A DNA stretch of 64,000 nucleotides, from NCBI RefSeq assembly GCF_022815645.1, contig NZ_JALGRO010000004.1, positions 62,001 to 126,000 of the forward strand, written 5' to 3'. How positions within the stretch are numbered: position 1 is the first letter of the stretch; each line of letters begins with the position of its first letter. This DNA is from Curtobacterium sp. VKM Ac-2922 (GTDB taxonomy: Bacteria; Actinomycetota; Actinomycetes; Actinomycetales; Microbacteriaceae). Below the pieces are notes generated by a model, which ran no database searches, was not told the DNA's origin, and saw nothing but the letters and a program-made list of their open reading frames with translations. This document shows, piece after piece, positions 5,630 to 13,334 of this stretch. The position numbers were made by a program, and so were the translations under genes.

Positions 5630-5669
5630 GGGGGGGGGGGGGGGGGGGGGGGGCCCCCCCCCCCCCCCC
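5630..5669. repeat. Homopolymer block: 24 G followed directly by 16 C
   Basis: An uninterrupted run of 24 G (5630-5653) then 16 C (5654-5669) in the 138-bp spacer between the HelD-like gene and the first sugar permease gene. The two runs are complementary, so the block is also a 16-bp perfect inverted repeat with no loop. Nothing else in the window resembles it. It may be a sequencing or assembly artefact, a phase-variable tract, or a join over missing sequence. Confidence 0.95.
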
Positions 5670-8905: not shown

Positions 8906-8930
8906 GGCTCGGTCCCTGCGCGGCGTGCTG

Positions 8931-9039
8931 GCGCGGACGTTCGCTGCCTGCCGGCGCGGACGTTCGCTGCCTGCCGGCGCGGACGTTCGCTGCCTGCCGG
9001 CGCGGACGTTCGCCGCCCGCCGGCGCGTACGCTCGCGGC
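8931..9039. repeat. Tandem array of a 23-bp repeat upstream of the MBL-fold gene
   Basis: Three perfect copies of a 23-bp unit starting GCGCGGACGTTCGCTG (8931-8953, 8954-8976, 8977-8999), a fourth with a few changes (9000-9022), and a fifth partial, diverged copy (9023-9039) that abuts the start codon at 9040. The diverged fifth unit supplies the TACGCT box used as the likely -10 element. The array fills most of the 134-bp spacer after the LacI-type gene. Confidence 0.93.
9028..9033 (+). promoter_or_regulatory. Probable -10 box (TACGCT) of a leaderless promoter
   Basis: TACGCT lies exactly 6 nt before the ATG at 9040, with no ribosome-binding site between. It sits in the last, diverged copy of the 23-bp repeat, where the perfect units read GACGTTC instead. 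Confidence 0.5.
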
Positions 9040-9675
9040 ATGCAGGTGACGAAGCTCGAACACGCGTGCCAGATCGTCGAGCAGGACGGTGCCCGACTGG
9101 TCATCGACCCCGGCGGCTTCACGCGCGACGTCGACGTCGACGGGGTGGTGGCGGTCGTCGTCACCCACGAACACGCGGACCACGTCATGCCCGAACAGCT
9201 CACCCGGATCCTCGGAGCGAACCCCGGTGCGCGGGTGTTCGGGCCGCCCGGGGTCGCCCGGGCACTCGCCGACACCGGCGTGCACGTCGAGGTCGTGACG
9301 GACGGTGCGCGGCACTCGGTCGGGCCGTTCGACCTGACGTTCCACGGCACGCAGCACACCGTCATCCACGCGTCCGTTCCGGTCGTCGACAACACCGGCG
9401 TGCTGGTGGGCGGGCGGCTCTTCTTCCCCGGGGACAGCTACACGGTGCCCGGGGTCCCCGTCGAGGTGCTCGCGGCCCCGGTGGGTGCGCCGTGGCTCAA
9501 GGTCGCCGAGATGATGGACTACGTCACCGCGATCGCACCGCGCCGCGCCTACCCGGTGCACGAGGCGACACTGTCCGACATCGGGTTCGACATGCACGTC
9601 GGGCGCCTGCGGCAGGTCGTGGAGCCCGCCGGGGAACTCGTCGTGTTGCGCCCGGGGGAGTCGATGGCCCTCTGA
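9040..9675 (+). CDS. MBL-fold metal-dependent hydrolase, UlaG-like
   Basis: A 211-residue metallo-beta-lactamase-fold protein. It opens with VTKLEHACQIVEQDGARLVIDPGG, typical of the UlaG/YtnP-like branch, and carries the metal motif THEHADH at about residues 44-50. A later His in HGTQHTVIH and the Asp of FFPGDSY complete the expected metal site. The substrate is not predictable; members include lactonases and general hydrolases. It has its own leaderless-looking promoter within the upstream tandem repeat and stands alone before two tRNA genes. Confidence 0.82.
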   Translation: MQVTKLEHACQIVEQDGARLVIDPGGFTRDVDVDGVVAVVVTHEHADHVMPEQLTRILGANPGARVFGPPGVARALADTGVHVEVVTDGARHSVGPFDLTFHGTQHTVIHASVPVVDNTGVLVGGRLFFPGDSYTVPGVPVEVLAAPVGAPWLKVAEMMDYVTAIAPRRAYPVHEATLSDIGFDMHVGRLRQVVEPAGELVVLRPGESMAL

Positions 9676-9765: not shown

Positions 9766-9841
9766 GGCCCCATCGTACAGAGGCCTAGTACGTCGCCCTC
9801 TCACGGCGGTAACGCGGGTTCGAATCCCGCTGGGGTCACCA
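9766..9841 (+). tRNA. tRNA-Glu (anticodon CTC)
   Basis: A full cloverleaf: acceptor GGCCCCA pairs with TGGGGTC, the anticodon stem TCGCC/GGCGG encloses a CTCTCAC loop with anticodon CTC, and the T loop is GGTTCGAATCC. The CCA end is encoded (9839-9841). It differs from the second copy at only a few bases in the D arm and anticodon stem. Confidence 0.95.
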
Positions 9842-9878
9842 CGGTGGCTTCCTCCGAGTCCGACAACAAGTATGCCGC

Positions 9879-9954
9879 GGCCCCATCGTATAGCGGCCTA
9901 GTACGCTGCCCTCTCACGGCGGTAACGCGGGTTCGAATCCCGCTGGGGTCACCA
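9879..9954 (+). tRNA. tRNA-Glu (anticodon CTC), second copy
   Basis: Same acceptor, T arm and CTC anticodon as the copy 37 bp upstream, with stem CTGCC/GGCGG and an encoded CCA. The two are probably one transcript, ending at the hairpin that begins 3 bp downstream. Confidence 0.95.
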
Positions 9955-10025: not shown

Positions 10026-10958
10026 TCAGCTCGCCGCCGTGACGTCCCGGACGACGAAGCGCGGGATCTCCACCGCCAGCGTCGCGCGGCACGTGGTGAA
10101 GGTCGGCCCCGTCCGCACGTGTTCGAGCCGCACGCGCAGCACGCCGTCGTCGCCGGCCACGTCGACCGACCACCCACCCGGTTCGCTCGGCAGCTCGGTC
10201 GCGGACATCGGTCGGAACGCGTCCAGGCGCGTGTCGCCGGTGTGCCGGACCGCGGCGGCGACGGCTGCCTGCTCGACGTGCGACAGGGTCGACCGCCCGC
10301 GGTACCCGTCCTGCAGGACCCGACCCTGCAGGTACGCATCCGCGATCGCCACCGGGTCGTGGTCGTCGACACGACCGTGGTTCACCCCGTGCGGGAACAG
10401 CATCATGGTGGCGGCGAAGCGGTCACCACCCAGGTGCGAGCACTCCCACGTCTCGTCGGGGTAGGCCTCGGACAGCCGCTCGGCGACCGCCCGACCCCGC
10501 ACCGCGCAGCACGCGTCGTGGCGCCCGTGTGCACACACCACGAACAGCGCCTGGTCGGACGGGACCCCGGAGCTGCCGTCGAGCGGGAGCGTCAGGAACT
10601 CGTGCGGGGACGAGACTTCGCCCCAGTGCGTCGTCGCGCGTTCGGCGTCGACCACGGCCCACCGCCACCGGCCGGAGCCGCGGGAGCGCCCCGGTCGACG
10701 CACGGCCAGGATCCGCATGCCGGCGTGCTGCACCCGCCGGGCGATCGCCGCACCCAGCTCGGGGTCGAGCACGGGGGAGTCCGTCCACACGTTCCAGCCC
10801 CAGGCGCCGGCGACCTCGACGAGCAGCCAGCGCTTGCCGGGGGACGCCGTGGCCGACACGTCCTCGTCGCGCAGACGGGCGCCCGCGCTGCAGGCCGGAC
10901 CGCCGCTCGAGCGGGGGAGTCCGGGGTCGGTCGGTCCGGTACGACGCCACTCGGTCAC
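10026..10958 (-). CDS. Sucrase/ferredoxin-like (thioredoxin-fold ferredoxin) protein
   Basis: A 310-residue protein of the Suc_Fer-like family, related to the Apd1/Aim32 thioredoxin-like ferredoxins that carry a [2Fe-2S] cluster. Visible Cys/His blocks are PACSAG near residue 23, VVCAHGRHDACCAVRG at 141-155 and WECSHLGGDRFAATMMLFP at 171-189. These match the family's cluster-binding region. The C-terminal 60 residues contain extra beta strands. The GTG start overlaps the stop of the cupin gene (GTGA), so the two are translated together. In this setting it could deliver electrons or iron to the cupin oxygenase; that is inference. Confidence 0.78.
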   Translation of the reverse strand: MTEWRRTGPTDPGLPRSSGGPACSAGARLRDEDVSATASPGKRWLLVEVAGAWGWNVWTDSPVLDPELGAAIARRVQHAGMRILAVRRPGRSRGSGRWRWAVVDAERATTHWGEVSSPHEFLTLPLDGSSGVPSDQALFVVCAHGRHDACCAVRGRAVAERLSEAYPDETWECSHLGGDRFAATMMLFPHGVNHGRVDDHDPVAIADAYLQGRVLQDGYRGRSTLSHVEQAAVAAAVRHTGDTRLDAFRPMSATELPSEPGGWSVDVAGDDGVLRVRLEHVRTGPTFTTCRATLAVEIPRFVVRDVTAAS

Positions 10959-12196
10959 GAGGCCGGTACCAGCACGCCTTCCCGCAGCAGGCGTCGCACG
11001 ACGACGACGGCGTCGTCCTCGTCGAGCCCCGGCAGCGTGCCGACCGCGTGGATGGTGCCGTCCGACAGCGCATGCAGTGCGTCGGAGCACACGGCGGGCA
11101 GCCGCACGGTCGTCCTCGGCAGCGTGATCGCGACCTGGGCGCCCTCGGTGCGGACGTCCGCCGGCATGCCCTCGCGCCAGCGCACCCGGTCGGTGCCGGT
11201 CAGCGCCGCCGCGACCTCGACCGTGTGCAGGGGACGGACGGGTTCGGGCCGGGTGGACCGAGCGAAGCGGGCTCCGACCGTGGCGGCGACGGCGGGCGAG
11301 GGGTCCTCCGTCGTCGTCAGCGCGGCGACCAGTTCGTCGGCGGCCGCACGGACCTCGGTGGCGATCTGCTCGGGGTCGCCGAGGTCGATGCCGAGGGGCA
11401 GCGACGCCCGCAGCGCATCGGAGCGCAGGGCGCGTTCGACGAGCACCCGGGCCAGGTCCGACCGTGTGACGGCGGGCATGCCGATCGTCAGGTGGATGGT
11501 GGTGCCGCCGAGCGCGGTCGCCGAGTGCAGGTACCCACGGGGCAGGTAGAGGGCGTCGCCCGGTGCCAGCACCGTGTCGATCGCGGGCGTGCCGGCAGCG
11601 CGGGCGGCCACGGCGTCGCGGTGGTCGCTCCACGGCTCGTCGCCGAACGGCAGCTCGTGGACCGGCTCGTGGATCACCCAGCGTTTCTCGCCGGCGATCT
11701 GCAGCACGAACACGTCGTGCACGTCGTAGTGCGGGTCGAACCCGCGCGAGGACGCCGGGGTGATGTACGCGTTGACCTGGGCCGGGTGCCCGAGCTCGGC
11801 GACCAGGCGCCGCGTGAACTCCTGCAGCGGCGGCCAGGTGCGGTGCAGACCCTGCAGCACGATGGTGGACCCGGCGGCGAACTCGGCGAGCACCTTCTCG
11901 GAACTGACCTGGTCACCGACCTCGGCGCCGTAGCCGCCCGGTGCGGTGAACGCCTGCGGGGACAGCACCGAGCCGTCCTTCGCCATCCGGATGAACGGCG
12001 TCCGGAGCCCCCGGACACTCAGCAGCTCGTCGGCCGCCTGGGTGGAGAACAGGTCGTCGAACGTCGACCCGAGGTCGTCGGCGCTACTCAGGAGCGCCTG
12101 CCGGCCCCAGTACCGGTCGGCGAAGTCGTCGGCCGGGACGGCGACGCACCGCTGGAGTGCGCTCGCCGTCCCCACCGTCTCGAGCCCTCGGCTCAC
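10955..12196 (-). CDS. JmjC-type cupin (cupin_4) oxygenase
   Basis: A 413-residue protein of the JmjC-like cupin family that includes the ribosomal-protein arginine hydroxylases. The Fe(II) site is seen in FDPHYDVHDVFVLQIAGEKR (His-x-Asp), with the distal His in YLPRGYLHSATA. Such enzymes use 2-oxoglutarate and oxygen to hydroxylate a side chain in a protein or peptide. The GTG start overlaps the stop of the repeat-peptide gene upstream and the stop overlaps the Suc_Fer-like gene downstream. That tight coupling suggests the repeat peptide is its substrate; a ribosomal protein is the alternative. The C-terminal third holds a winged-helix-like region as in ROXA proteins. Confidence 0.8.
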   Translation of the reverse strand: MSRGLETVGTASALQRCVAVPADDFADRYWGRQALLSSADDLGSTFDDLFSTQAADELLSVRGLRTPFIRMAKDGSVLSPQAFTAPGGYGAEVGDQVSSEKVLAEFAAGSTIVLQGLHRTWPPLQEFTRRLVAELGHPAQVNAYITPASSRGFDPHYDVHDVFVLQIAGEKRWVIHEPVHELPFGDEPWSDHRDAVAARAAGTPAIDTVLAPGDALYLPRGYLHSATALGGTTIHLTIGMPAVTRSDLARVLVERALRSDALRASLPLGIDLGDPEQIATEVRAAADELVAALTTTEDPSPAVAATVGARFARSTRPEPVRPLHTVEVAAALTGTDRVRWREGMPADVRTEGAQVAITLPRTTVRLPAVCSDALHALSDGTIHAVGTLPGLDEDDAVVVVRRLLREGVLVPAS

Positions 12197-12450
12197 GCGG
12201 AGCCGTCCGCGCCGCCGTCGTGGCCGTTGGGGTTGGCGCCGCCGTCCGCGGGGCCTTCGCCCGCGTCGGCGGAGCCGTCCGCACCGCCGTCGTGGCCGTT
12301 CGGGTTCGCGCCGCCGTCCGCGGGGCCTTCACCGGCGTCGGCGGAGCCGTCCGCACCGCCGTCGTGGCCGTTCGGGTTCGCGCCGCCGTCCGCCGGGCCT
12401 TCGCCGGCGCTCTGCGGGTCGGTCGTGATGTCGTCGTCGTTGATGCTCAT
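12193..12450 (-). CDS. Repeat peptide of 3 x 24 residues, possible RiPP-like precursor
   Basis: An 85-residue peptide: a 14-residue acidic leader (MSINDDDITTDPQS), then three copies of a 24-residue unit beginning AGEGPADGGANPNGHDGG at residues 15, 39 and 63; the last copy lacks one residue. Units are identical in amino acids, and the base differences between them are synonymous, so selection acts on the protein. There is no Cys, aromatic residue or membrane segment. The stop overlaps the GTG start of the cupin oxygenase (GTGA). I do not know this family. A multi-core modified peptide or a metal-binding peptide would fit; Asn, Asp and His in NPNGHDGG are candidate hydroxylation sites. Confidence 0.75.
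   Translation of the reverse strand: MSINDDDITTDPQSAGEGPADGGANPNGHDGGADGSADAGEGPADGGANPNGHDGGADGSADAGEGPADGGANPNGHDGGADGSA
12197..12412. repeat. Three tandem 72-bp repeats inside the peptide gene
   Basis: Copies at 12197-12268, 12269-12340 and 12341-12412, each starting GCGGAGCCGTCCGC on the plus strand. Copies two and three are almost identical; copy one differs at several wobble positions. The unit length is 24 codons, so copy number can change without a frameshift. Confidence 0.95.
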
Positions 12451-12534
12451 GGTGGTCCCTTGTTCACCGAGCGGCGCGGTGCCGTCTGCGCCCGAGCGTA
12501 GGACGTGCGGCTGACGAGGGTCCAGGATTGTCCC

Positions 12535-12963
12535 GTGCATGACGACCGACCACCCCATCTCCGCTGGCACCTGATCGGTCTCGTGGCCCTCGGCGGCGCG
12601 ATCGGCACCGCCGTGCGAGCCGTGCTGTCCGACCTGGCACCCGCGGTCGACGGCCTGAGCTGGACGATCCTGGCGATCAACGTCGTCGGGGCGTTCTGCC
12701 TCGGGCTGCTGCTCGAGGCGCTCGCGCGGCGCGGCCCCGACGTCGGACGGCGGCGCACCGTGCGGCTGCTCGTGGGCACGGGGGTGCTCGGCGGGTTCAC
12801 GACCTACAGCACCCTGGCGGACGACACCGCACGGCTGCTCGTCGACGGCCGATGGGGCGCCGGGGCCGGGTACGCGCTGCTCTCCGTGGTGCTCGGGCTC
12901 GCAGCGGTGGTCGTCGGGCTGGTCGTGGCCACCCGGGGGCGCACCGCCGGGAGCGGACGGTGA
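12535..12963 (+). CDS. crcB: Fluoride channel subunit, CrcB/Fluc family (first of two)
   Basis: A 142-residue protein with four membrane segments. GGAIGTAVRAVL at residues 21-32 and the GGFTTYSTL block near residue 85 are the Fluc signatures; the Thr-rich break in the third helix carries the central sodium and fluoride track. It exports fluoride from the cytoplasm. Two adjacent crcB genes usually form a heterodimeric channel. GTG start, with a CAGGAT box 6 nt upstream and no ribosome site. Its stop overlaps the second crcB gene by GTGA. Confidence 0.88.
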   Translation: MHDDRPPHLRWHLIGLVALGGAIGTAVRAVLSDLAPAVDGLSWTILAINVVGAFCLGLLLEALARRGPDVGRRRTVRLLVGTGVLGGFTTYSTLADDTARLLVDGRWGAGAGYALLSVVLGLAAVVVGLVVATRGRTAGSGR

Positions 12964-13334
12964 GCCCGCTCGAGGTGCTGCTGGTCGCCGTGGGCGGCGG
13001 GCTCGGGGCAGCGCTGCGCTTCGTCCTGGACGGCGTCGTGAAGTCCCGCGTCAGCGGCTTCCCGCTCGGCACCATGGTCATCAACGTGAGCGGATCGCTC
13101 GTCCTGGGGCTGCTGACCGGCCTGGGCCAGGCCGGGACGCTCGCTCTCGTGCCCGTCGCGGTGCTCGGCACGGGCATGATGGGTGGGTACACGACGTTCT
13201 CGACGGCGAGTGTCGAGACCGTGCGACTCGTGCAGGCCGGCAAGACCGGCTCCGCAGTCCTGAACAGCCTCGGCATGCTCGTCGTCTCGGTCGGCGCAGC
13301 CGCGCTCGGCCTCTGGCTCGGAAGGAACACATGA
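12960..13334 (+). CDS. crcB: Fluoride channel subunit, CrcB/Fluc family (second of two)
   Basis: A 124-residue four-helix Fluc subunit. VGGGLGAALRFVLDG at the N-terminus and GGYTTFSTAS near residue 78 are the conserved blocks. Its start overlaps the stop of the first subunit and its stop overlaps the phosphatase start (ATGA), so all three genes form one coupled operon. Dual-topology partners pair antiparallel; charge distribution between the two copies should decide orientation. Confidence 0.88.
   Translation: MSPLEVLLVAVGGGLGAALRFVLDGVVKSRVSGFPLGTMVINVSGSLVLGLLTGLGQAGTLALVPVAVLGTGMMGGYTTFSTASVETVRLVQAGKTGSAVLNSLGMLVVSVGAAALGLWLGRNT

Follow-up and report, generated by a model that had tools for sequence, protein, structure and literature searches.

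A small repetitive peptide and a JmjC-type oxygenase, encoded side by side in Curtobacterium sp. VKM Ac-2922, are a real and strongly conserved pair that works like a RiPP system. The reading favored here, at a probability of about 0.6, is a compact RiPP-like system in which the peptide serves the oxygenase as its dedicated substrate and has its side chains hydroxylated, most likely at the beta-carbon of aspartate. The parts of this reading differ in strength: it is highly probable that the peptide is the substrate of the oxygenase and moderately probable that aspartate is the modification target.

The cassette lies on the minus strand of the window, the whole 64,000-nucleotide stretch of DNA that was analyzed, and runs from 12450 to 10026 in the order peptide gene, JmjC_2 oxygenase gene, Suc_Fer-like gene, with GTGA as a four-base overlap at both junctions. 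A preliminary description of this DNA had three overlapping minus-strand genes here, and its coordinates, strands, lengths and both junctions are confirmed. The precursor-like peptide gene (12193..12450, minus strand) starts at ATG, stops at TGA and encodes 85 amino acids: a putative N-terminal leader, MSINDDDITTDPQSA, which contains a DDDI motif (12406..12450), and then three units of GEGPADGGANPNGHDGGADGSADA, located by tandem-repeat detection and unit comparison at 12334..12405, 12262..12333 and 12196..12261. The second unit has the protein sequence of the first, and the third ends two residues early; the units initially described as three identical 24-residue repeats therefore share one protein sequence but measure 24, 24 and 22 residues. 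At the DNA level, the repeat has a 72-nt period, 3.1 copies and 93% matches. The oxygenase gene (10955..12196, minus strand) encodes a 413-residue JmjC_2 (ROX-type) Fe(II)/2OG oxygenase, referred to below as the cupin, and the third gene (10026..10958, minus strand) a Suc_Fer-like protein of 310 amino acids. Pfam assigns the oxygenase to JmjC_2 (1.4e-26) and the third protein to Suc_Fer-like (5.5e-17), while the peptide has no family match in Pfam or NCBIfam.

Variation among the repeat units is silent. The units in the window differ pairwise by 1, 4 and 5 nt over the 21 residues (63 nt) compared, and every difference is synonymous, as had been claimed. Across the nine Curtobacterium genomes with the gene, 23 readable units have a single protein sequence and codon changes that are synonymous only; these units were found by script on that exact sequence, and the printed peptides, read by eye, hold no other version of the unit. 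All nine genus cupins have an adjoining peptide with two or three units, one of the nine peptides (L008) being partly masked by an N-gap. In the close group of relatives, 224 units from the best 80 of 576 candidate loci read G-E-G-x-A-DGG-[AS]-N-P-x-G-H-DGGADG-x-A at their free positions. Asn and His are each present in 222 of the 224, and since the units were located through their DGG...DGGADG frame, both residues lie outside that frame. Synonymous-only change and the retention of Asn and His suggest that selection acts on the protein sequence of the peptide, and this counts as support for the favored reading. A GC-rich simple repeat could instead be a low-complexity artefact that merely resembles a gene; this explanation is contradicted by the synonymous-only variation, by the conserved start and position of the ORF upstream of the cupin and by the GTGA that it shares with the cupin gene in the window, and can in practice be dismissed.

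The linkage of peptide and cupin was assessed in 132 distinct cupin homologues (32-100% identity), picked by the cupin and not by the peptide. They represent the closer part of the family, pooled from several searches after removal of cupins identical over a 140-residue stretch: the order search gave loci for 30 matches and the phylum search contributed L159-L188, in each case part of the matches only, and the pooled set leaves out lower-scoring JmjC_2 matches without loci (e.g. G638, G701, G802, G819 and G835). Two loci (L120 and L185) could not be judged, as contig ends intervene. A repetitive, Asp-containing peptide is encoded just upstream of the cupin in 129 of the 130 judged loci; 122 of these peptides were called by script (L027 and L062 among them are cut by a contig end) and seven by eye, including the partly masked L008. 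The sole exception, L171, has no clear peptide and carries a long acidic ORF without a repeat instead. A gene-encoded putative precursor next to a candidate modifying enzyme, the arrangement that characterizes RiPPs, is the rule in these loci, with side-chain modification as its predicted outcome. The earlier proposal that peptide and oxygenase form one unit, which was to fall if cupin homologues mostly lacked the peptide gene, is borne out by the opposite pattern.

Two further searches agree on this linkage. In the best 80 of 576 candidate loci (3.7-13.3 kb each), a six-frame scan for ORFs with at least two [DN]GG[AST][DE] motifs finds a peptide ORF on the strand of the cupin in 78 loci, its end lying between -29 and +156 nt relative to the estimated start of the cupin, and no other ORF of this kind in the scanned sequence. 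Of the two exceptions, L049 has an N-gap inside the repeat, and in L120 the contig begins only 23 bases ahead of the cupin. In the converse direction, the DNA pattern for HDGGADG matches 40 of 396 genomes of the phylum, 11 of them with two or more matches within 300 bp, and in all 11 the cluster adjoins a cupin with an E-value below 1e-140. The matches in the other 29 genomes are single or scattered and fall outside the converse count. In one more genome with a cupin of this kind, the twelfth (G670), Gln replaces the His of the peptide.

The start of the peptide is more widely shared than its core. Of 128 peptides, 108 have a DDDI-type acidic motif ahead of the core, 95 of them called by script and 13 read by eye; the script alone gives 95 of 122, and the larger figure follows after seven starts were re-set and six ORFs added by eye, L008, which has the motif, being left uncounted. 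The motif is common to peptides with wholly different cores, appearing as INDDDITT, LSDEDIETV and VEDEDIVTT. The 20 peptides without it are mainly (ADGG)n peptides that start with MSETP or similar, and two of the 20 are cut by a contig end. A conserved N-terminal motif ahead of varied cores behaves as a leader would, and the assignment as a putative leader follows from this pattern of conservation.

Middle-group cores consist of (ADGG)n plus one or more HDGG units. In the distant group, whose cupins are 32-39% identical and represent eight families from outside the class plus one belonging to the same order, Asp alternates along the core with Ala, Gly, Ser or Thr. In the 15 distant cores scored, 39% of residues are Asp, and 12 of these cores have no His and 12 no Asn; L181, a distant member outside these 15, is built of SADGTDQG repeats and contains some His and Asn. 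The core initially singled out, NPNGHDGG, is therefore a local version only, its deep relatives being Asp-rich and mostly devoid of Asn or His. Aspartate is favored as the target because the distant cores are so rich in Asp and mostly lack both other residues. As the peptide ORFs were chosen by their Asp or DGG content, finding Asp in all cores is in part circular, which slightly lowers confidence in the main reading, and the loss of His and Asn in the distant cores is the only informative part of this comparison.

The oxygenase model has the full-length ROX (NO66/MINA) fold, with predicted dimerization and winged-helix domains after the JmjC domain. Its iron ligands (H156, D158 and H224, the HxD..H site) and 2OG lysine (K171), identified by alignment, are invariant in the family alignment. 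Profile and fold comparison uphold the earlier placement of the enzyme in an Fe(II)/2OG family that hydroxylates protein side chains. The cupin shares its full predicted fold, HxD..H site and 2OG lysine with NO66 (RIOX1) and MINA53 (RIOX2), and Y144 is the Tyr328 equivalent; it differs from both in its one-to-one link with a small repetitive peptide and in having Gly239 in place of the serine that contacts the substrate histidine. R65, R70, H160 and D161 are invariant in the cupin family, whereas NO66 has Ile and Glu at the positions of H160 and D161. YcfD, the uL16 arginine hydroxylase, stands further off in the profile comparison, which gives 2e-41 for NO66 but 3e-19 and 3e-14 for the Rhodothermus and E. 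coli proteins, respectively.

NO66, MINA and YcfD are ribosomal oxygenases with the same whole fold, and by analogy the cupin could hydroxylate a ribosomal protein, with the peptide as its regulator or decoy. Such a role is very improbable: no more than 9 of 66 Curtobacterium genomes have the cupin, at identities of at least 79% (a different JmjC_2 protein in G031, locus L016, 35% identical, is excluded from the nine), and the peptide accompanies it in all but one of the judged loci.

A closer competitor keeps the same system and places the modification on the His of each NPxGHDGG unit, beta-hydroxylated as by NO66 and MINA, with the Asp-only distant cores as a separate specialization. The closest solved relatives of the cupin are these two histidyl hydroxylases, NO66 is reported to prefer NHXH preceded by three glycines (PMC4556315), which resembles GGANPxGH, and the near-complete retention of both His and Asn by close-group units (222 of 224 units from the best 80 of 576 candidate loci keep the His) fits a His target and speaks against Asp. 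However, Ser421 of NO66 is described as contacting the substrate His (PMC4556315), as are Ser421 and Ser257 of NO66 and MINA together (PMC9994133), and this serine aligns with Gly239, invariant in 50 aligned members of the cupin family. Together with the 12 of 15 distant cores without His, this leaves a His target as an unlikely alternative to aspartate hydroxylation.

The C-terminal winged-helix domain of the oxygenase (10958..11188, minus strand) is a candidate leader-binding domain, consisting of three strands followed by helices in the secondary structure of the model. R401 and R402 of the oxygenase are nearly invariant in the family alignment. Sequence comparison does not support a PqqD-type recognition element in this domain: hhalign gives it a probability of 0.6%, and Pfam finds no PqqD in 50 members.

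The Suc_Fer gene is accessory to the peptide-cupin pair. It lies downstream in 70 of the best 80 of 576 candidate loci and is absent from the other 10, and six of those 10 genomes, drafts that keep peptide and cupin, show no Suc_Fer gene anywhere. Of the three-gene coupled cassette first proposed, the association of peptide and cupin stands, with the third gene as an optional addition. The expected thioredoxin-like ferredoxin domain is found in the Suc_Fer-like protein ([2Fe-2S] type, residues about 134-228). Like the thioredoxin-like ferredoxins Aim32 and Apd1 as reported (PMC8482512), it belongs to the Suc_Fer family and has a CX8C motif (C142, C151), but their HX3H is HX3D (H175, D179) in 71 of 71 aligned proteins. 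In the window protein (10026-10958), HX3D may point to an unusual set of [2Fe-2S] ligands.

Apart from the three cassette genes, every non-overlapping ORF cluster is limited to nine or fewer of the best 80 of 576 candidate loci, with flanks of up to 6 kb, and no protease or exporter is conserved within the same limits. A wider gene cluster was rejected, the remaining large ORF clusters being, by position only, antisense ORFs over the cassette. No MNIO (DUF692) enzyme, as would be expected for an MNIO or methanobactin-type metal peptide, is present among the three proteins by Pfam, and these 80 loci show no fourth conserved gene. A defense system was likewise discarded, as PADLOC matches none of the three proteins. 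The absence of a conserved protease or exporter, the missing PqqD-type sequence match in the C-terminal domain, the 20 of 128 peptides without the leader motif and L171 without a clear peptide are points against the RiPP model.

The peptide might alternatively be a disordered partner that is not a substrate, such as a metal buffer or chaperone feeding iron to the oxygenase or ferredoxin, while the oxygenase acts elsewhere. An Asp-, His- and Gly-rich sequence could bind metal, its neighbors are iron proteins, and the cassette has neither protease nor exporter. However, near-invariant repeats fit a substrate better, and upstream of the peptide in 76 loci, IdeR/DtxR, Zur and Fur boxes are no more frequent than in shuffled sequence, which makes this explanation improbable and also runs counter to the metal-peptide reading offered in the preliminary description. 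NrdR boxes in the same 76 loci are likewise no more frequent than in shuffles, and LexA shows a slight excess of low-mismatch sites.

Carriers extend well beyond the genus. At an E-value of 1e-20, matches occur in 64 of 396 genomes (29 of 110 genera) of the order, and profile matches in 58 of 396 genomes (40 of 237 genera) of the phylum. Among the named carriers are Curtobacterium, Cellulomonas, Leifsonia, Agromyces, Herbiconiux, Rhodococcus, Gordonia, Mycobacterium and Actinokineospora. Viral contigs yield six pattern matches, none of them a relative. A plasmid search with the peptide returns no match, a result that the low-complexity filter may affect by hiding such sequence, and plasmid cupins are all below 60% identity. 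A JmjC_2 protein on a Streptomyces clavuligerus plasmid (L189, 2742-4155) is 31.6% identical to the cupin; a 48-residue ORF upstream of it combines an acidic DEIEV segment with an Asp-rich end, and an S9 peptidase and an ABC transporter are nearby. Another Streptomyces plasmid (L190, 1-7179) has consecutive genes for a pair of cupin proteins, a carbamoyltransferase, a DinB protein and an M13 metallopeptidase, and on a cyanobacterial plasmid (L191, 1-4155) a JmjC_2 protein lies near a LanM-type lanthipeptide synthetase gene.

In the window, the cassette is flanked by a tRNA-Glu pair (9766-9954) on one side and by presumably crcB-like genes (12505-13334) on the other. The cassette occupies this site in three (L212-L214) of 20 loci compared within the genus. 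In seven cassette-free loci, the tRNA pair lies 63-192 bp from the crcB match and the interval is nearly empty; the distance is 616-955 bp in four more, and six have no tRNA within the stretch examined. Presence in three loci and absence elsewhere at the tRNA-Glu/crcB site indicate that the cassette is gained or lost there as a block. Elsewhere in the window, a run of 24 G (5630-5653) looks like a contingency-type homopolymer and precedes an ORF taken to be an ABC-transporter permease, and a GC-rich 23-bp tandem repeat of 5.4 copies (8919-9043) separates what are presumably a LacI-type regulator and a metallo-hydrolase ORF.

In the proposed RiPP-like system, the acidic INDDDITT segment at the N-terminus would serve as leader, and the glycine-rich repeats would form the core. 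Using O2, Fe(II) and 2-oxoglutarate, the oxygenase would hydroxylate side chains in every repeat, most likely at the beta-carbon of Asp, with the His of the NPxGHDGG unit as second candidate. The Suc_Fer protein may be an optional electron or iron partner, for instance keeping the iron of the oxygenase ferrous or handling product-bound metal. Because the cassette encodes neither a protease nor an exporter of its own, the product is probably kept inside the cell or handled by general machinery. The simplest guess at its final function, and a weak one, would be a repeat peptide that binds metal intracellularly.

A search of the open literature, with most subscription papers beyond its reach, finds no description of a peptide-cupin-Suc_Fer cassette, in line with the initial impression that it matches no described class. 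A 2025 paper in JACS reportedly concerns 2OG-dependent macrocyclization in RiPPs and may overlap with the present cassette. Three published cases come close in other ways. BipG is a JmjC enzyme reported to hydroxylate Orn in a RiPP precursor during biphenomycin biosynthesis (PMC12707348). It is a precedent for the favored reading and would share with the cupin its action on a RiPP precursor, but it differs in its Orn target and in its setting, a large cluster where it is one of several tailoring enzymes alongside a radical SAM enzyme, an MNIO, an arginase and a protease (PMC12707348). Corallotide is described as a graspetide whose five repeats undergo hydroxylation by a 2OG oxygenase (PMC13097080). 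Both systems would have a core of repeated units, in each of which a 2OG enzyme places a hydroxyl group; in corallotide, however, an isopeptide macrocycle forms first, the target is Lys and the cluster group is reported only in Corallococcus (PMC13097080). Bacterial JmjC (PF08007) homologues of about 30% identity, with RRE-like folds and RiPP-like contexts, appear in a 2025 paper (PMC12710340). They may overlap with the present superfamily, and the single sentence given to them names no peptide, repeat, leader or ferredoxin (PMC12710340).

A broader formulation is tentative and carries well under even odds: an undescribed, phylum-wide RiPP class in which a JmjC enzyme closer in sequence to NO66/MINA than to YcfD would turn ribosomal repeat peptides into poly-(beta-hydroxyaspartyl) peptides, with an intracellular metal-binding product and with eukaryotic ribosome hydroxylases as possible descendants of such enzymes. 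If the core aspartates are hydroxylated, the product would be a gene-encoded repetitive hydroxy-acid peptide, useful for metal chemistry and biocatalysis. A large family of JmjC oxygenases gains a concrete candidate substrate, RiPP-like systems gain a minimal two-gene architecture without a protease or exporter of its own, and the human ribosomal oxygenases gain bacterial relatives.
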